Source: Rodentolepis nana
Taxonomy: Eukaryota; Platyhelminthes; Cestoda; Cyclophyllidea; Hymenolepididae
DNA: 17,227 nt
Direction: 5' to 3'
Assembly (NCBI GenBank): GCA_900617975.1
Contig: UZAE01013525.1
Coordinates: forward strand, 1 to 17,227
In this document: positions 5,607-15,836 of the stretch, in pieces
How positions within the stretch are numbered: position 1 is the stretch's first letter
Layout: every line of letters starts with the position of its first letter
Position numbers and translations under genes: made by a program
Notes under the pieces: model-generated
What the model saw: only the letters and a program-made list of their open reading frames with translations
Databases searched by the model: none
Told to the model about the DNA's origin: nothing

Positions 5607-5908
5607 TTAGCTAAGCTGAGAATGGAATCGTTCATTCAAAAGAGTGACAAGTTTTCTCTTGCCACGGTAGGAATGACACAAAGAGGTGACAAGCTGATGG
5701 AATTGTCTAAGACCGTCGGGTTTGAGCAGACTAAAGACCTCGTGAGCTCGTGCAAGAAAATCTACAAAATCGCCGTATTGTCGTGGTGAAATGCTTGCTA
5801 GTCGGGAATGAGTTGTCATGATATAGGCGTTTATTGTGGCATCCAGTAGAGCTTTCAAGGGAGGAACATCAACAGAGAGACGCTGTTTGTAGCTGTTGCA
5901 GAAGAAAG
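5607..5908 (-). CDS. ZSWIM-like gene, terminal exon with stop codon
   Basis: A long T tract followed by TTTAAAG gives the acceptor. The first two bases complete the codon left open by the previous exon, and this phase match rules out the alternative CAACAG acceptor 16 bases downstream. The exon encodes 99 full residues plus TAA. The C-terminal domain holds PPLKALLDATINAYI, THSRLASISPRQYGDF and a YRGKRKLVTLLNERF ending, all close to the end of vertebrate ZSWIM5/6, with five extra residues (HSQLS) after the usual RF end. This region overlaps what has been called the Sin3-like domain of ZSWIM6. Confidence 0.93.
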
Positions 5909-8900
5909 CTTTAAAAAAAAACAAAAAAAAGATTGAAAGAGGAAATTAAATTATACAGAAGAAGGCCAGCTAAGACACTTTCATGGGCACAACGATTTAT
6001 CACGAATATATGATGACTAAACGGATTCAGTCAACTTACGGTGATTCATTTGCGGATGAAGAGGAAAATGTGGTCGAAGTCCATAAGGAAGTGGTGCTCG
6101 ACACCTGTGAAGAATCTCCGTCAAGACTGCTGGACAGTGGACATTGGAGATAACCACCTTAAGGAAATCTGACAGCTTGGTAAGTCCTAGACGATGAGCA
6201 AGTTGGCATGACCATAGGACATCTTGAGCGATTGGATGATTGTCCTCAAAAGATTTAAAGACACAATATCGTATAAAAAATAAATAGATTGAAGTTAAAA
6301 TTTGCATCACAATGACTATTCAGACAAGTGATTGAGAAACTTAGAACGCTAAGGGGATATGAAAGTCACTAATGCTATTATTCAATCCAAGTATTACAAT
6401 TTTTTTGTTTCTGCTATATACCGCGTTTGATCTCTTTTTAGATTTCCCCAAATAGATGTAAATTCCGACCTAAGGAAAGTTTAAACGAAATTGAGCAAGA
6501 CCTTCCATACTGCTCCACTACCCCCATCAACGACTCATAAAGTTTGAGAGTCTTATGAACGATGTAAAATTGTTTAGTATGCAATAACAAAATTATTAAT
6601 CATGTCAAATTGTGGTTTCAATATCCTTTTTCTTATTGGATGCAAGAATTCTACCTTATCCAATTGAAATTTGTCATCTGTTTTGATGACCGGAGTTTCT
6701 TTTATTTACATCTTTACTTTCCCCCCTGGTTTTCCATAAATAACATTTAAAAATCTAAGTATTTATTTACACCCAGGGATGAATCATCGTGCGTATTATT
6801 TAGATGTCCTGACAACCAACTGTGCCATGGAAATCTGGAAAAAAACAGGGTGCAAGCCAGACGCCAGTATTGAAGCATAAATTCGAACCTTAAACTCTTT
6901 AAAACCTGAACATTCTTACATAAGTTAACCCAATTATAGCATCCTTATGCGATAGCCCTATTATGTGATCGAAAATGATATCTTTTTTTCATAATAACAC
7001 GAATGCCATTTATTAGGACCCTCGGACTATGTCGAAAAAATTGCAAGATGAAGTTCTTCACCATTTGTTCGGTCTAATTTCTATTAAGTGGTAAATGTCA
7101 TATTACTCTGACTTCAGAAAAAAAAGATAGACCATTGGAGTAAAGGCATTCCAAAAACAGAAGGAGCCTTTAACTATTAAGTCACAATTCATAATTGGCT
7201 ATAGATTTAAAGTAATAGGATTTCGACTCCGGTGCGTTGTGTCCTTTGCTTCCACGTCAAACGAACATATCGAAATGCTTGACCTTGGATTTGCCTTCAA
7301 ATTATGTGGGTGTAAAACACGTATAATTTGATGAATTACCTCCAGCAGCCGACACCACCACCAAAATTGCGGGGTCAAAGCAAACCTCTGCCACTAAATA
7401 AATGGTAAGAGACTGATTTTTATAATGTCAGGCTTAAGAGTTGAAGTGGCGTAAAAGTAAGGAATGTGGTTTAATGGTGTTTCAACAAGTCACGGCTTGA
7501 CAAATTCGGCCACTTGAGGGGTGTGAAATATACTAGTGAACAATCGAACGGGGAGGGGAGGGGGGGGGAGCACGAATTGAAGGAGTATTGAGGCGTGCTA
7601 TGGCAAGCTAATCACCGGAAGCAGTTAGACTGAGTAATTTATCCACATTCAGAGACGAAATAGGGAAAAAAACTATCAAAACTACTCTAACACAGTACTG
7701 TAGCAAATGTATATTATATATTACTTGGAGTCCAGTTAGAACGAACTGACGAATAGCCTGAACTGTGAAAGGAAATGCTTGTTCGGAGAAACCTCGAGAA
7801 TCGAGGTACTTAGCCGCTGTGAAGAGTGTACTTGGTCGAAGTCTCCCAGAATAGACTGCATTCAAAACCAGAGGGTAGATAGCTTGAAAACTCGCAGGAT
7901 CCATTTCAGTTAATTGAAGAGCAGCCAGCGCACAACTCACGGGATCCTTACTTGTCGCCTAAAACAAAAAAATTATTTCAAAATTGTTTCCATGTCTTAA
8001 ATGCTAAAAAAGTTCCCGTTATTATACGAGTTAGTTTGCATAACGTGCTTGAAATTTACCCCTGGATTGGTATTTAGGTAGTTTGGAAAAGATTAACAGT
8101 TGGCCAAATCGTAATAGTCAGCGATTTAGAGTTCATTTAGCGAAACAAAACGAAAGTAAACAAATTTTTACTGCGTGAATGTTAGAGACTGTTGTTTTCA
8201 GTTCACATTATCATATTTGAAATGAGTTGAAGTAGGAGAATTCGTTCAAACGTTTCTTTCAGAAGAGAGAGAGGGGGGGGGCGCGAAATTGTCAGAATTC
8301 TTTTGTCGTGCAGTGAATTCTTCGACAACAGACAATGTCAACGTAATAGGGGAAAATAGGAACATTAAAATAAAAATAATACGAAACAGGTGCTTATTTT
8401 TATGCTTATAAAATCAGACGACACAAATTCGAAACCAATCAATTCACATAAGATATTTTAAATGTCAATCCAAATTAGCTTGAATCTGGCCGTGGGAGAA
8501 CAATTTATTAAATTTAAATTACTTTTTCCTTGTTAAAACAAAGGAATAAAAAGGAGCTGAATGTTTAACAGTTGACTCAGAACCTAGAACAAATTCCAAA
8601 TGTGTGATTTTCTTTGTTTTAATGCCTTTTTTTCGTTTCACACAAAACAAACAAAGGGGAAACCACACTAACTCCACTCTGAAATCACCCGAGACAACTA
8701 AACGAATGCACAAAAAATGAATGACTTATGCGGTTGAAAAGACGTATTTTTTGTTTCAAAAAGGAAATCCTGAAGTAGCTTGTCAAATACATATTTTTAG
8801 ACAAAAGATAAACGTCCATAACACAGTTCGAAGATTGCCAAGATGGCGATAGTCCCCACAATAAAACACAAAAACAGGTGGATGCGAAAGATCACAACGA

Positions 8901-11900
8901 TCTGACCAGCTTTGGAAACTTCAGACGACTGTTCTTCTTGTTGTATAATTCTCGATAGTACCCATGGATTTTGAAATAAAGTCCCGATTAACACTGGAAG
9001 GATTTATTGACTGCAAAAGGGAGTTTCTTCCCAATTACCCTGCTCCTCAAATAAATTGGAAGTTATTTGCAGAGAGAAATACCTCTGTTCACTTCAAGCG
9101 TATCCAAATCAAACGTCACCCAATCTAAAAATTTTACTTTTTACATTGATTGGCATATGTCGAGGCTTGGGGTATTCGCAATAGAATTTCCTTTTGATAG
9201 GGCCTTAAAAAGAGCCGATTGATTCCCATTGTTTTCTACTAAATCACAAGCCACTAGTTTCACATACGAACCTGAGACAGTGTAGCATGATTAATGTTCT
9301 AACACAAAGAGAGTTAGAGAATAAAGCCAGTTAATGTATGCAGATGTGCATTTGCAAAACTTAATAAGCCGACAGGGTATTTGTTGGCTAAGCGTTACTT
9401 TACTTGTGTGTCACGTGATTATCTGAACAACCACAGGCGAGGCAAATTAGAAGCTATCCAAATTATGTTAAGAAATGTGAAGAATCGTGGGACGCACTCA
9501 GTAATGGCTTAATTCGAATACAGGGAGGGATAATAGAATGGGCAGCGCAGGCTTAACGTTCTCCTTTATCAAGCCAGAGGTTACATGATTGAAGGTCATC
9601 TGATCACATTCAGTAAGCAAGTGGAATCCGAGTTTCTCACATGGTTGTTTTCATGCCCCTAATCCTCTGCCTAAGATGATTTTTCTAAACTGCTCTCCAT
9701 TACGGGGTTAGGAGTAACGTTTATTAACCAGGAATTACTCGGCCTTGACAATAAGACACTGAATTCTGGAGAGGTTTGATTCGTCGAGGTTGAAGAGATG
9801 AGCTTGATTCCCACTTAACCATTTTTCCTGATTTATTTCCAAAAAGCAACACCTAGGATGTTCAACGCAAAATCATGGTACTGTGTAGGTGTAGATTTTC
9901 TTATACGTACTTCTAATCAATTGGAGACCATGCAATCGATTCTAATTGGAATGTTCGATAACAGTAAATAAGTCTGATCAGCAAATGGGGGGGGGGAGGA
10001 AAAGATTACGATCTTCTAAATTGGACAATTCCATGGTGCCATCCCACCTCTTAATTATTTTTCACAAAATCTCCTTCCTCATCAACTTCGTGGGGAAGTA
10101 TGAACAACTCCACTCAGAAAAAGGCACGCTAGCACAGTCCCACTTTTTATTTTACTGGGAAGGCTTGTTGGTGTCGTCACTGCCAAGTAGATTTATTTGT
10201 TACGAACACCTTCCACTATGTGCTACTTCACTTTACTTATATTTGAGCCCTTTATCAACTTATTTTAATGAAGTGATAAGGGATTAAATAAAAAAGGTAA
10301 ATAAATACAAAAGTTGTAAACTAGTGTGTAAAGCAAACTGTCGAGATCAATAAAGCTAAGAACTACGGCTACAATATTTACACACTGGAACGTATGAAGA
10401 AGCATCTAGTCATTGGTAAGCGACCGTGGAAACACGCGCCAATGAGATGCGTCGATTACACATGGCGTACCAGCAACTATCCACTAGGAGATAAGTGTTT
10501 ATCCCCCTGTCATAATGCAAGGTCGATAGTAGGATAGGCAAACTGCGCTATTGTCTCACGCGTGATTGGCCTAACTGCGTCAGCCAATGGAAATCGAGAA
10601 TTATGCTGGTCGTATGTGCAACGTCGTGGTAACGCGAGAATCGACACGAGAAGTAGATTTGGACGAGCTAAGTTAGTTGACTGACGTGTTCTAGTACCTT
10701 ATCTTCTTCTTAACATATCACCATGGAAATGCGAAAGCTTACTGTTGCCCTCCTGGGGATCGCCATCGCTATGATCATCATTGCTTTAGCTATTTCCGAC
10801 TGGCGAAATGGTCTGGCTTTCGGTGGATCTAGCTACGATAAAGAAGCCATGGTTGCAGTCACATTTTTGATTATCATCGGTTTAATTTGTTTAATAATTG
10901 TATTTATCCTCGACATCGTCATGCTCTGCCAAAGTACTGTCCCCGCAGGAATGATGACAGCCAGATTTGTGATTCTTTACATCGGGGTAGCTCTTATTAT
11001 GATCGGTGTCTTGGTGTACACTTCAAAACGCGGAGGTCTCTGGCCTTACTTCCTTGTTGTTGTCGGAATGGTCTTCGCTTCTCTCGTCGCAATTTTGGCC
11101 GCAGTTTACTCCAGATGTGTTTCCTCTGAACGTGTCGTTGTGGTGCGTTCGGCGCGTTAAATTGGTAAAGGTTGCAAACGCAGAATTCGGACTAAACCGC
11201 ATGAAAGTTAACCACTAGAAAACTAAGACGCCTCTTTTAATACACCCCACTGCTTATGCTCTCATTGTTCACTCCATATAATTTTTTTCATCATCGCCTT
11301 ATAACTGCTACACTCTGTTGAATGCAGATAACCCGGATTTAACAATAGACCTTCACCCGTTTTCTGCTGCTTTTCCGTCCATTCTCTTCGGTTCTTCCCC
11401 CCTAGGATTTGTGTTTGTTGATAAATATTTCAAATTGTAAGAAACAGTCACCCACAAGCAACGCTAAAATGTTATATTCATTGAATGGGATAATTGAATA
11501 AAACTCCGATTGAATCGCTGCACATACTGGCTTGTTCCTCTTTCTTTTGTGGGCTAAGAAATTGGGAGGGTGACTTTCGGATCCTCAGGCGGATACTGGA
11601 ATGTGGGGGGAAGCTACTGATGTGCTTCATAGTAATAAAAACTTATTTTGAGTTTCAGGATGAGGATTTAGGTAATAGAAAAAAGAGAATTTCATGGAGT
11701 TCATTGTAATAAAATAGTCAGGAAACTGAGCATCGTTACGAATATTGGGATGCATCCCCTTTTTCGCAAATAAATACATTGATTTAATGAATCAAACACC
11801 AAGGGAACAAATTTCAATTTTTGAAATAATTTGCAGAATTCATTTTAGAACTGGTTTCTTCCTTGTATCCCAACGCCAGGAAAAAAAATGAAAGGCATAA

Positions 11901-14900
11901 ACCCATAACTACTAACAGAAAATAAGTAAACAACCTCTAGGTTATACTTTCAAATTGACAAACTTGTTAATTAAAAATGACATAAAAATAATAGCTATAC
12001 CTCTCATGACGCAAACTTATAATCTGATAATTGAAAATGAGGGTAGATGACTCGATGAGTCAATCAGAAATTACCTAGGAAAATTTGTGGGGGTCTTCAG
12101 CATAGTTAAAAATTACATAAATTTAAAAGGGAGATTCACAACGATGGTATGAGCTCATAAGTAAAGCATACATTTAGTTTTTAGAAAATAGATAGAGTGA
12201 TGGTTTCATCATCACGGCAAACAGACAATAAGCATGAATTCGGAATCGGTGGTCAAATTTCGAAGAAAATTCCATTAGTAGAACAAAATAATGAGAACTT
12301 AAAATTAAAACAAATGCAGTTAAACTAGAATGCAATATATTTAAGCAGTATCTGTTTATTATATAACAATAATAGCACTACTTATATAGCAAAAGTAGTA
12401 AACAATATACCACGATAGAGCCACGTTAAAACAGTTGATCAATTAAGTGTCAAATCGATTTTCCACTCTAAAAGTCAAGAATGAAGTACCAGCCGAGAAA
12501 GGAAACTAAATCGGCGATGATTTTAATTTCGATTATTATCTGCATCTCAGTTAGTCTGTATTTCACAACGAACAGCTTCATACATCCCCAGTATAGAATT
12601 GGAAGTACTAAACACTTCTTCAACGCATTTTATGGGATGCAAATCATCGGTATAATGTTCATCATTGGAGGTTTACTTATTACCCTCTGTTATTGCATTA
12701 GCTTACTTACCGACGCCCAATTTGTCGTTTTCCTTTATGCGGCGCTAATTCTGTCTGTGTCAGCAATATCATTTGGGATTCTTCTGGATGTGCTATTTCG
12801 GGTTGCATTCGACTACATTTTTGCCTACAGTGGAGTTGTCTTGACAGTTGCTTCCCTCGCTAGCACAAAATTGGATCTCTGATAAAAATACAAAGTTCTA
12901 TAGAAATTGAGTGTTTTTTTTTCGTTTCCAGCGTTGGTGTTATATTTAGGAGACTTATCTAAGAAAGAGACTGATGCATACGGTGCTGAAGAGTCTAGAT
13001 CATAGCGGTATCCCAAATACCCGATTGGCAATATTATTAGTTTAAGATCAATGCTATATTAACCTGGGAAATTACTTTAGATAAACACGAGGATTCCACA
13101 ATTTAAACGAAGCTTTGACCTTGGTATTGATTTTCGCAGGGATGAACAATGTGGAAATTGGCCAGGAAGAGGTAAAAGTTGACAAGCGAACTATACAGCT
13201 ATTAATTTTTGCAACAATTCTGCTCGCATTGTCTTTAATAATAACAAGCACTAAACCCGAAAATCTAGGCAGAAAGCCAATACTTTTGGAGATTTTTCTT
13301 GCATTTGGAGTGCTTTTCTTGGTGCTAACGCTAGCCCTCCTTCCATTTGCATTGCCTGGATGTAAAATCAGCAAAACCTTTCTAAAGAAAGTACAACTTG
13401 CCTTTCAAATCGCTGGAACAATTCTGGTATTACTGGCGATCTTATTAAGCGCAATTATGACCAATAATAGACTTCAGTTTTGGCTATACACCGCAGCACT
13501 ACTCAATATCATCGGATTACTCGTTATGAAACCAGAACTTGAAAAAATAACCACTGCCATAGAAATGTCCAATGTTGAAGGATAATAAATGAACCTCAAA
13601 CCCTACATAAAAGATAATTATTGTAATTTTATCAACCACGGTTAGTACCAACGTGTATAATCATTGCAACAAGTTAAAATGAACCAATAATTTATTCCAT
13701 TCTAAATTTAGGGAAATTAGGATTAAAATCAGTTATTACCTAAGTAAAATTTATCATCTCATAAGACAATAAGTGGTCAACGTAGATCTTATATATATAC
13801 ATCGTAAGTAGGTCTTTAAAGAGCATTGTTGATTTACACGTGTCTTGGTGATTAAATTATGCAACTTAACTAACAGTTTGTGATAATAATCGAGAGGAAG
13901 GAGAGTGAGAATAAGAAGAAAAGACATGTAAACCAGTTGAATTAATACATTTTTTTGTAAGCCACTTGAATTTAAGTAAAGCCAACGAAATATTTTACTC
14001 CTAATCGCGTGCAAGGTCACTTGAAAAAAAAGGTTATGAAAGATCAAGAGTTTTAATACACCTCCATATCTGGATGTCTCAAGTGTCATAAACAAGAAGG
14101 GCAATTGAAATTGTTGTAGCAGTACGTCAGTCACTGCCAACCAATTATTTTACGCAATTCATTTACCATATATTGACTTTCACTCAGGTCTAAATATGAT
14201 TCGATTTGTATAAATTATCTGCATCCTGGATATTTGCTTACCCCAGATATTACACCAAACTGTCTCTTTTCTCAATTCTGCTTGTATTAAAGTTCATAGA
14301 AGTTTAGCACTTACACTTCTAAAGATGATTAGTCTCAACTAAAAAATTAGTCCTTTGAAGGTCATCTCATATATATTGAAATTACCAAAACGAAATACCC
14401 CCCGCCCCCACATATCAAAAAATCAGAAAAAAGTTGTAACCCATTGCCCCCAAAATAGCCCAAATTAGGAAGAAGAGATTTCGAATTCTACTCACTATAT
14501 CCCATCTTTGGCCATTTCCATAGCTTAGTTAGTAGAGTAAAAGGGTTGGCATCATATAACCATTAAGACTAACCTGAACAATCATGGCCCTGACAGCAGC
14601 ACGAATTTGATCCAGATTTGTAAGGGAGAAGGAATGAAAGCTGTAGACTCTTGGTGAGCTCGGACACATGGGATCCAAACTCCCATCACGTCCAACACCA
14701 CTTCGACCACCAGTTCTTCCACTAGTGTTCAAGCCACTTCCACTTGTCACAGTACCCACGTTTTGGAGATAACTCAGACAATTAAGCATTGTTGGTGCCA
14801 GCATCGTTATACCCTCTATAGTAGAAACATACGAACTCCACGACTGCACTAGGTGTTTTAGCGCAAACGGTCCTGCAAGGATACCCGTGGATACCATCCA

Positions 14901-15836
14901 ACCGAGGAACTCCTGTCGACGAAAATGATGTTTCGGCCATAATGTCCGAACAGCTACACAGAGGGCCAAATGGAATGATGTTGTAACCAATGCGGTACGC
15001 TCCTATTTAATCAAACGCATGGAAAACACGATAAGATAATGATGTCACAACAAATTGAAGGTCATGCAGGTTAGGGTCAAACGCACTTGTATACTACTGG
15101 AAGGTAGAGGGGAAGTCTCAAAATTGATTGGAAGCATAATAGATGAATCCTGACCCCTTGTGGGAGTGGGACTGGCAGCTGAAGTGGCGATATTCGCTAC
15201 AGCGTTCATCAATAAAACGGGCTCATCGATAGTAAATGCATTAGAGGATGTGTGTAGACGATGTCCTATCGCTTCAGCCATTACCTATAGTGAAATATTA
15301 TTAAATAGGATAAATAAATACTAGTGAATATATAGATAGACGAAAAAAACTTTGTTAATATGAGGTTATTTAAATTCATTAAACATTAAATTATTTTAAA
15401 AATAAAGACAACAATCACCTCACGAGAAACCGTGAAAAGACTAAGGGCGGAATGTATATGGCGATCACAAATGCGTAAGAAGTGGTCAATACGAGCGGAG
15501 GGTTGACGAGATGCAAGGATCAAACTGATGGTCAAACGAGCTTGTCGACCTTCCATAGCAGCTAAATCACGTCGATAGGCTGCTGAGGCGGCATCATTAA
15601 GAGCTGGATGTTGCCTTGTTCGAGACCAAGTTGATCTGGACCCATCTTGGGTCCGAGATATGGCACCTGTTGGTGATGTGCTTGGACTTGTTAGAGTTTT
15701 CTCGTACATTCCATGGAAATATGATGGGGGTGGGGGGAGGCGTCGAGAGACTGGAATCTCTGAGCTTCTTGGATTCGTCGAGTTGCTATCATTAGCAATC
15801 TGAATGCTATCTGAAGTTAACTCGAGAATGGGAAAC
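5607..15836 (-). CDS. ZSWIM4/5/6-like protein, C-terminal six exons (partial gene)
   Basis: This is the 3' part of a spliced minus-strand gene. Exons, in transcript order, are 15836-15419, 15284-15087, 15002-14574, 7958-7725, 6244-6040 and 5908-5607. The joined frame runs 594 residues to a TAA at 5609-5607. Every intron is GT-AG, with phases 0,0,0,0,1, and the first exon enters in phase 2. Recognition rests on C-terminal blocks remembered from vertebrate ZSWIM5/6: a block near HPxxxDVLWxCxLxHxLG, then LLDATINAYI, THSRL, ISPRxYG, and a YxGKxKLxxLxxERF ending. The family has an N-terminal SWIM zinc finger and is thought to act as substrate receptors of cullin-RING ubiquitin ligases. That half lies outside the window, so neither zinc binding nor ligase role can be seen here. 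The exact paralogue (4, 5 or 6) cannot be chosen; invertebrates may have a single ancestral copy. Confidence 0.9.
6040..6244 (-). CDS. ZSWIM-like gene, fifth exon in window (68 residues)
   Basis: The exon begins GACAATCAT after a TCTTTTGAG acceptor (phase 0) and ends one base into a codon before a consensus GTAAGT donor (phase 1). It holds the most recognisable family block: HPIAQDVLWSCQLAHRLG, then a helix ending CPAVLTEILHRC, equivalent to vertebrate HPAINDVLWACALSHSLG and CATVLSDILRRC. The last 20 residues are a Pro/His-rich linker that varies in the family. Confidence 0.93.
6245..7724 (-). other. ZSWIM-like intron, 1480 bp
   Basis: GTAATA donor and TTTTGAG acceptor. AT-rich, with one G/C tract near the donor. 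I see no ORF, RNA gene or repeat family inside. Confidence 0.85.
7550..7570 (+). repeat. G-rich tract in intron
   Basis: Nearly pure G with three A, about 155 bases downstream of the donor of exon 7958-7725 in transcript sense, where it reads as a C tract. Confidence 0.85.
7725..7958 (-). CDS. ZSWIM-like gene, fourth exon in window (78 residues)
   Basis: The exon starts at GCG after a TTTTGTTTTAG acceptor and ends at CAA before GTAATA, phase 0 at both ends. The opening KDPVSCALAAL matches KDPQNCALPAL of vertebrate ZSWIM5/6. The following helices contain FQAIYPLVLNA and TAAKYLDSRGFSEQA, which correspond to the FEAAYQIVLDA and IARYMEHRGYPLRA blocks. The junctions on both sides reproduce continuous conserved sequence across the introns, so the splice sites are well supported even though the upstream intron is 6.6 kb long. 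Confidence 0.93.
8264..8281 (+). repeat. GA/G purine tract
   Basis: Four to five GA units lead into nine G, within the 6.6-kb intron. Simple-sequence DNA. Confidence 0.8.
9987..9996 (+). repeat. 10-base G homopolymer
   Basis: Ten consecutive G in the 6.6-kb intron, inside an ORF that starts at TTG and is probably not coding. Confidence 0.85.
10412..10694 (+). promoter_or_regulatory. CCAAT/CRE-like promoter region of gene A
   Basis: The 300 bases before gene A are richer in G+C and CpG than their surroundings. They hold ATTGG at 10412-10416, CCAAT at 10439-10443, ATTGG at 10565-10569 and CCAAT at 10584-10588. A CRE-like TGACGTGT is at 10682-10689. There is no TATA box near the start. A TTCTAG at 10689-10694 could be a trans-splice acceptor. 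Binding-site density plus position just upstream of an ORF is the basis; activity is inferred. Confidence 0.5.
10723..11160 (+). CDS. small four-helix membrane protein A (145 aa), nested in ZSWIM-like intron
   Basis: This ORF has an ATG in a strong context (CACCATGG) and ends at TAA 11158-11160. The protein is almost all membrane: predicted helices at about 7-25, 43-67, 82-99 and 108-129. Loops are short, with WRNGL directly after helix 1, a charged DKE before helix 2, SKRGG between helices 3 and 4, and a 16-residue basic tail ending SAR. The shape resembles claudin/MARVEL-type tetraspan proteins, but the claudin loop cysteines are missing, and Cys lies only at 56, 69 and 132. I do not recognise the family, so function is unknown; plasma or internal membrane is an inference. 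It lies antisense inside the 6.6-kb intron of the ZSWIM-like gene, has a CCAAT-rich upstream region, and a polyA signal 337 bases after the stop. No intron is needed. Confidence 0.88.
   Translation: MEMRKLTVALLGIAIAMIIIALAISDWRNGLAFGGSSYDKEAMVAVTFLIIIGLICLIIVFILDIVMLCQSTVPAGMMTARFVILYIGVALIMIGVLVYTSKRGGLWPYFLVVVGMVFASLVAILAAVYSRCVSSERVVVVRSAR
11497..11502 (+). terminator. polyA signal of gene A
   Basis: A canonical AATAAA lies 337 bases after the stop of gene A and is the first one in this 3' flank. It is followed by a mixed TG-rich stretch. Confidence 0.5.
11503..12470. other. spacer between nested genes A and B
   Basis: Very AT-rich and ORF-poor. Apart from TATA-like words at 12360-12366, I see nothing. 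It probably holds the promoter of gene B. Confidence 0.6.
12481..12882 (+). CDS. small four-helix membrane protein B (133 aa), nested in ZSWIM-like intron
   Basis: The ORF runs from ATG to TGA. A basic N-terminus (KYQPRKETK) suggests it is cytosolic. Predicted helices lie at about 12-29, 51-74, 81-103 and 110-127, and the tail after the last helix is only a few residues (TKLDL). The loop between helices 1 and 2 is about 20 residues with no cysteine; Cys 70 and 72 sit in helix 2. Helix 3 opens AQFVVFLY, resembling ARFVILY at the same place in protein A, which hints at common ancestry. The stretch before the ATG (a C/T run, then AAAAGTCAAG) could be a splice or trans-splice acceptor; a TATATAA lies at 12360-12366. 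Function unknown. The next gene C starts 259 bases after its stop. Confidence 0.8.
   Translation: MKYQPRKETKSAMILISIIICISVSLYFTTNSFIHPQYRIGSTKHFFNAFYGMQIIGIMFIIGGLLITLCYCISLLTDAQFVVFLYAALILSVSAISFGILLDVLFRVAFDYIFAYSGVVLTVASLASTKLDL
12911..12931 (+). other. candidate splice or trans-splice acceptor between B and C
   Basis: A run of nine T followed by CGTTTCCAG gives a near-ideal polypyrimidine tract and CAG acceptor, ending 49 bases after the stop of gene B and on the same strand. No coding exon of B needs it, so it may receive a spliced leader or a 5' untranslated exon for gene C. Confidence 0.45.
12974..13007 (+). CDS. possible short first coding exon of gene C
   Basis: An ATG followed by 11 open codons ends in a single base before a GTATCC donor-like site. 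Joining that base to the GG after the acceptor at 13139 restores a codon and reads straight into the gene C ATG frame. The implied intron, 13008-13139, is 132 bp, close to two ZSWIM introns here (131 and 134). The donor is weak and a frame match happens one time in three by chance, so this is only a candidate. Confidence 0.3.
13126..13139 (+). other. acceptor site immediately before gene C start
   Basis: ATTGATTTTCGCAG ends two bases before the ATG of gene C. It is a good 3' splice site by composition. It could take a cis exon (see 12974-13007) or a spliced leader. Confidence 0.5.
13142..13585 (+). CDS. small four-helix membrane protein C (147 aa), nested in ZSWIM-like intron
   Basis: The ATG at 13142 is the first in this open frame and sits two bases after a strong acceptor (TTTTCGCAG); the nine open codons before it have no ATG. 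The protein has a 19-residue charged N-terminus, predicted helices at about 20-36, 47-71, 84-106 and 113-129, and an acidic tail of about 18 residues (KPELEKITTAIE). Inter-helix loops are short and basic (GRKP; PGCKISK). The build matches proteins A and B, but identity is too low to be sure of homology by eye. A possible extra first exon at 12974-13007 would add an in-frame start and about 12 residues. AATAAA overlaps the stop codon. Function unknown. Confidence 0.78.
   Translation: MNNVEIGQEEVKVDKRTIQLLIFATILLALSLIITSTKPENLGRKPILLEIFLAFGVLFLVLTLALLPFALPGCKISKTFLKKVQLAFQIAGTILVLLAILLSAIMTNNRLQFWLYTAALLNIIGLLVMKPELEKITTAIEMSNVEG
13584..13589 (+). terminator. polyA signal of gene C overlapping its stop codon
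   Basis: AATAAA begins at the second base of the TAA stop of gene C. If used, the 3' UTR would be only a couple of dozen bases. A further AATAAT near 13685 is a weaker alternative. Confidence 0.45.
13590..14573 (-). other. donor-proximal part of the 6.6-kb intron
   Basis: AT-rich DNA between gene C and the ZSWIM-like donor. It contains a 128-codon minus-strand open frame (13754-14140) starting at TTG, with an internal ATG at codon 18. Composition is hydrophobic but matches that of the AT-rich background, and I judge it probably chance. Confidence 0.55.
14574..15002 (-). CDS. ZSWIM-like gene, third exon in window (143 residues)
   Basis: The exon begins after a TTAAATAG acceptor and ends at CAG before a GTTAGT donor, phase 0 at both ends. 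Residues about 10-80 align with the vertebrate block holding the RRREMVRWLVS-type helix, a motif with a conserved Trp (here VQSWSSYVSTIEG, compare the vertebrate QNWYSLFTPVEA), and a following Leu-rich helix. Residues 81-118 are a Gly/Ser-rich insertion that I do not remember in vertebrate proteins. The last 20 residues (LDQIRAAVRAMIVQ) match the position of the vertebrate LWACARTLALQ helix. The donor begins the 6.6-kb intron that hosts the opposite-strand genes. Confidence 0.88.
15087..15284 (-). CDS. ZSWIM-like gene, second exon in window (66 residues)
   Basis: The exon starts in phase 0 after a TTTCACTATAG acceptor and ends at CAA before a GTGCGT donor, phase 0. It codes for a helical N-terminal part that continues the previous exon's helix, then a low-complexity Ser/Thr/Pro linker. 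Conservation to vertebrates is weak. Its assignment rests on perfect phase agreement with both neighbours, on two short flanking introns (134 and 84 bp), and on its position between two clearly conserved exons. Confidence 0.8.
15419..15836 (-). CDS. ZSWIM-like gene, first exon in window (139 residues)
   Basis: The exon opens after a TTTTAG acceptor with one base completing a split codon, and ends at GAG before a GTGATT donor. The first residues (FPILE) resemble the LPVLE region of vertebrate ZSWIM5/6. Residues about 7-85 are a Ser/Thr/Pro-rich stretch with four prolines at 34-37 and have no clear vertebrate counterpart. Conserved sequence resumes near residue 88 with a short block containing EGRQARL, corresponding to the LETRQCEL region of the vertebrate proteins, and a helical segment ending FTVSRE. 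No in-frame stop occurs. The upstream exon contributes two bases of the first codon and lies beyond 17227, or was too short for me to see. Confidence 0.85.

Follow-up and report, generated by a model that had tools for sequence, protein, structure and literature searches.

Three small tetraspan genes nested antisense in an intron of a ZSWIM4-8-type gene of Rodentolepis nana

Three small proteins with four hydrophobic helices each, here called A, B and C, are encoded by single open reading frames (ORFs) on the plus strand of a 17227-bp contig of the tapeworm Rodentolepis (Hymenolepis) nana, all within one large intron of a ZSWIM4-8-type gene lying on the minus strand. The contig was analyzed at its entire length and is referred to below as the window; searches of the own genome covered the 107-Mb assembly of 4701 contigs. 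A, B and C are three real nested protein genes antisense to the host, A being a further member of an existing cestode family, and B and C, two unannotated orphans. Taken jointly, the data make it fairly probable that all three are functional intronless antisense genes, which we infer to be expressed, with A a miniature claudin-superfamily-like protein of likely auxiliary role, and B and C a constrained pair that maybe forms an operon.

Nested reading frames in the host intron

The genes and the intron containing them are positioned as follows:

10723..11160, plus strand: gene A, single ORF of 145 amino acids (aa), tetraspan, of the cestode intronless family
12481..12882, plus strand: gene B, single ORF of 133 aa, tetraspan, orphan
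13142..13585, plus strand: gene C, single ORF of 147 aa, tetraspan, orphan, with the ATG 259 bp after the B stop codon
7959..14573, minus strand: intron of the host ZSWIM4-8-type gene, 6615 bp, GT..AG, phase 0, containing A, B and C

An earlier note on this DNA had described three plus-strand single-ORF genes in one 6615-bp intron of a minus-strand ZSWIM-like gene, each product having four hydrophobic helices with the same spacing, and we recover the ORFs exactly at their coordinates, in an intron with GT-AG ends. Each protein has four separate stretches of 19 residues whose Kyte-Doolittle hydropathy averages at least 1.64: residues 6-24, 44-62, 82-100 and 110-128 in A, 12-30, 55-73, 82-100 and 108-126 in B, and 17-35, 51-69, 88-106 and 111-129 in C. 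The spacing is alike across the three proteins, as the note had it.

Both strands of the intron together contain three ORFs of at least 130 aa, all on the plus strand and all with four helices. One thousand dinucleotide shuffles of the intron yielded on average 0.047 ORFs of this length per shuffle (two at most), and not a single one with four helices.

Protein A, its family and predicted fold

With A as the query, seven further open frames with no stops within the match were identified in the own genome (E-values from 1.0e-21 to 8.6e-4), and the eighth paralog, L035, was gained by searching with paralog L012; the members in this genome reach down to 25% identity with A. A database search with eight members of the family retrieved 31 proteins, 17 of which carry a species name, a cestode in all 17 cases, although scoring was limited to the 7993 candidates with the most words in common, so that the search says nothing of absence in other taxa. 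The genera named are Rodentolepis, Hymenolepis, Anoplocephala, Taenia, Hydatigera, Echinococcus, Mesocestoides and Spirometra, all of them cestodes. Two A-family ORFs of the own genome, in L015 and L016, are identical in sequence to the R. nana database proteins P0004 and P0005. In the family tree (35 rows, L035 included, P0016 and P0026 trimmed) nine rows constitute the orthogroup of A, with 69-96% identity to A and support of 93/90, slightly below the star threshold of the tool. These comparisons place A in a family of intronless tetraspan genes found in cestodes. A, whose family the earlier note did not recognize, thus does have relatives, and its predicted fold is claudin/TARP-like.

Entries named "expressed conserved protein" or "MARVEL domain-containing protein" in Echinococcus, Taenia, Hydatigera and Mesocestoides belong to this family. 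As its members have been automatically and inconsistently named in UniProt as MARVEL proteins, G-protein-coupled receptors or TctB transporters, these names are unreliable. B and C matched no named entry.

Several other observations concern the family. L035 (136 aa, contig C2281), missed by the A query, is very divergent, with a branch of 2.96 changes per column. The L013 and L014 genes (contig C960, 670-1059 on the minus strand and 2539-2901 on the plus strand) are positioned head-to-head about 1.5 kb apart and form a second cluster in the genome. Protein P0001 from Hydatigera taeniaeformis (229 aa) consists of two tandem A-family units, perhaps neighboring genes fused by annotation. Within the Mesocestoides pair P0013/P0021, the listed contig size is the same, as it is within the Spirometra pair P0029/P0030. 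The longest contig listed for P0002, the database copy of A, has 21574 bases, compared to 17227 in the window, so another assembly probably extends the A locus. PDB sequence searches with two A-family alignments and one paralog retrieved nothing relevant.

The structure model of A has a predicted local distance difference test score (pLDDT) of 77.1 and a predicted template modeling score (pTM) of 0.69, and it resembles the PMP22/claudin/TARP/MP20 fold, with TARP, MP20 and claudin structures at the top of the matches listed. With the PMP22/EMP/MP20/claudin superfamily, comprising claudins, TARPs, LHFPL, GSG1L and MP20, the A family shares the predicted four-helix arrangement, W..G..F after helix 1, and a conserved W that begins helix 4. 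The first extracellular loop of claudins carries a W...GLW..C signature. In the A-family alignment of 30 sequences (without P0001, P0002, P0016, P0019, P0022, P0026, P0031 and L035), W27 is present in all 30 sequences, F33 in 29, and the subsequent C in 15, with the pattern W-x-C-G-x-[FL]-F-x-x-C kept in 15 members. One paralog, L011, matches Claudin_3 from Pfam (PF06653) with E-value 9.8e-6 and 26.1 bits over profile positions 1-114 of 163.

Several points weigh against this assignment. The signature cysteines are missing from A itself, and A has no significant Pfam match to any model of the superfamily. The score of L011 is below the curated cut-off of 28.7 bits, and no other member among the 30 matches Claudin_3 at E-value 0.1 or better; at genome scale L011 is the sole match to this profile, with E-value 7.9e-4. 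Further, the first extracellular loop of true claudins has about 50 residues and forms the barrier sheet. The modeled helices 2-23 and 37-69 of A are separated by only about 13 residues, so the barrier sheet is missing and A does not have the loop of a true claudin.

The MARVEL-type tetraspans would be an alternative to the claudin type, suggested by the UniProt label "MARVEL domain-containing protein" of several A-family members and by a match of L012 to Pfam MARVEL with E-value 0.2 and 12.1 bits. However, this score, the best MARVEL score in the family, is far below the cut-off of 32.8, none of the 30 members matches the MARVEL profile at E-value 0.1 or better, and both the strongest profile match of the family, Claudin_3, and its best folds, TARP, MP20 and claudin, point to the other superfamily; the absence of MARVEL structures among the fold matches listed proves nothing either way. 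Hence we consider the MARVEL assignment rather improbable, and the A family probably belongs to the claudin superfamily, a membership that the model and profiles suggest rather than prove.

The A family would then consist of miniature claudin-superfamily-like proteins, with four predicted helices, W..G..F after helix 1, W starting helix 4, and a short first loop. As this loop is too short for the claudin barrier sheet, A would most likely act as an auxiliary or membrane-organizing subunit, like EMP/PMP22, TARP or LHFPL proteins, and not as a paracellular seal.

Proteins B and C: constraint, origin and a possible operon

At E-value 1 or better, each of B and C has one database homolog. For B, it is P0032, 65% identical over 133 of 133 aa, ungapped and of equal length; for C, it is P0033, 147 aa, 67% identical over 147 columns without gaps (69% by BLAST over 98%). 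Both homologs are listed with the longest contig of 36371 bases, so they are probably neighbors there as well. The R. nana copies of B and C are not listed in the database search, whereas the copy of A is, and in the absence of a self match both genes seem unannotated in R. nana. Searching the own genome for paralogs of B and C produced only weak short matches with E-value 0.004 or worse.

The apparent lack of annotation, which sets B and C apart from A, might suggest that they are chance long ORFs or decaying copies and not genes. However, the homologs are full-length, ungapped and of equal length, and no four-helix ORF of this size emerged from the intron shuffles. We also simulated neutral drift to the observed identity, 500 times for each gene. 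Stop-free outcomes were obtained in 34 simulations for B and in 15 for C, and about eight indels relative to the homolog would be expected neutrally (assuming one indel per ten substitutions), whereas neither gene has any. The share of conservative replacements exceeds all simulations, being 0.468 in B (simulated maximum 0.455) and 0.562 in C (maximum 0.489). The hydropathy change per replacement in C, 1.47, is below all simulations (minimum 1.85), and that in B, 2.40, is one that the simulations also reach (their minimum being 2.10 and their mean 2.93). These measures mark B and C as genuine protein-coding genes under purifying selection, and their origin as chance or decaying frames is scarcely credible.

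The relation of B and C to A is a different matter. We scored them with a hidden Markov model (HMM) of the A family, built from A, the paralogs L010-L014, and 26 of 33 database proteins, 32 sequences in all. Left out of it were P0001, P0002, P0016, P0026 and P0031, which comprise a fusion, the self copy, extended entries and a fragment, as well as L035, and P0032 and P0033, which served as test sequences. The scores were compared to those of 1000 topology-preserving shuffles, with helices and loops held in place. B scores 4.1 bits, colinearly over residues 15-123, a value matched by 27 of 1000 shuffles, and this weak signal vanishes in its homolog P0032, which scores –2.0 bits (205 of 1000); B and P0032 jointly are matched by 42 of 1000. 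C scores –0.2 bits (296 of 1000), and P0033, –0.7 bits (246 of 1000). Local hhalign probabilities are 0.75% between B and the A family, 0.40% between C and the A family, and 0.65% between B and C. By HMM, shuffles and hhalign, homology of B or C to the A family, or of B to C, is undetectable at the sequence level.

The tandem duplication with fast divergence inside the host intron, proposed in the earlier note, is therefore unsupported, as the scores of B and C fall within the shuffle range and all hhalign probabilities are below 1%. The likeness of ARFVILY in A and AQFVVFLY in B at helix 3 is visible by eye, but lacks statistical support as homology in the HMM and shuffle scores, and, with hhalign giving no support either, the shared look of the two helices is no evidence of descent. 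The structure model of B has pLDDT of 60.0 with no residue reaching 70, too poor to make a fold search with it.

One might still argue that the three genes form one family, in which B and C arose from A by tandem duplication in the intron and then diverged past recognition. They share the strand, the intron and similar four-helix spacing, the alignment of B to the A-family HMM is colinear, and recognized paralogs of A have themselves diverged widely in this genome. However, the negative score of P0032, the scores of C and P0033, indistinguishable from shuffles, and the hhalign probabilities speak otherwise, and the W residues of the A family at helices 1 and 4 are not seen at the aligned positions in B or C. 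We therefore regard common descent of the three as unlikely, if worth keeping in view.

According to excerpts of two published reports, same-strand genes at most 300 bp apart are candidates for flatworm operons, with UUNYAG as the spliced leader (SL) acceptor motif (PMC12582326), and SL trans-splicing is reported in H. microstoma (PMC7653826). B and C are located on the same strand with 259 bp between the B stop and the C start, within the 300-bp threshold as excerpted from PMC12582326. Two acceptor-like sites are found between them:

12926..12931, plus strand: putative site TTCCAG after a T run, an exact UUNYAG match, 49 bp past the B stop and ending 210 bp before the C ATG
13131..13139, plus strand: acceptor-like TTTTCGCAG, candidate trans-splice or cis acceptor, ending two bases before the C ATG

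The last six bases of the latter, TCGCAG, have one mismatch to UUNYAG as given in the excerpt of PMC12582326. Since C starts so close after B with such sites in between, the two genes may be co-expressed, compatible with a two-gene operon whose messages SL trans-splicing would separate. The pair thus resembles the flatworm operons excerpted from PMC12582326 and PMC7653826 in strand, spacing, and acceptor-like sites in the gap and before the C ATG, but differs from them in being known from DNA alone, in the distance of the exact motif from the C ATG, in the one-base deviation of the nearer site, and in its nesting within the intron of another gene. The plus strand of the intron has 12 exact UUNYAG sites, so the presence of one in the B–C gap, with about 0.5 expected by chance in 259 bp, is near chance. 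The B–C operon is a fair hypothesis and not a result, quite possible on this evidence but with the balance leaning the other way.

One of the same 12 sites, a TTNYAG acceptor-like site at 10689-10694, ends 28 bp before the A ATG and is a possible spliced-leader site for A.

A bolder reading would see here an antisense nest in which all genes have a mini-claudin fold and go back to one ancient origin, with a slow A and a fast spliced-leader-resolved B–C operon, constituting a tegument or junction set of the Hymenolepis lineage missed by annotation. We consider it a long shot, and prefer three functional antisense genes with A probably claudin-like and B and C constrained. If the A family is indeed claudin-like, cestodes have a set of small claudin relatives that lack introns and the barrier and that go by misleading, automatically assigned names; this would provide a lead on membrane organization in the syncytial tegument. 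To judge by B and C, small membrane genes under constraint can escape tapeworm annotation when they lie in introns, and the B–C pair offers a specific case in which to test for an operon within another gene. Neither the A family nor the nested cluster is described in any title or abstract beginning among the literature matches listed.

The host gene

Searches of the window found no Rfam family at the gathering score and no tRNA. The host protein had no match among PDB sequences. The host gene has been modeled with six exons, listed here in the direction of the minus strand:

15419..15836, minus strand: most upstream modeled host exon, putative, by open frame and splice sites
15087..15284, minus strand: putative host exon, by open frame and splice sites
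14574..15002, minus strand: putative host exon preceding the large intron, by open frame and splice sites, outside the Pfam match
7725..7958, minus strand: host exon following the large intron; the ZSWIM4-8_C match includes its later part
6040..6244, minus strand: host exon, ZSWIM4-8_C
5607..5908, minus strand: final host coding exon with the stop codon, ZSWIM4-8_C match

The match to ZSWIM4-8_C is confined to the three exons that follow the large intron, and the three modeled upstream exons would belong to the same host gene by their splice sites, phase and open frame. The large intron (14573..7959 on the minus strand) unites two phase-0 exon ends with the frame staying open, and the six spliced exons produce an open frame of 594 aa, with Pfam ZSWIM4-8_C at residues 393-581 (E-value 2.6e-48).
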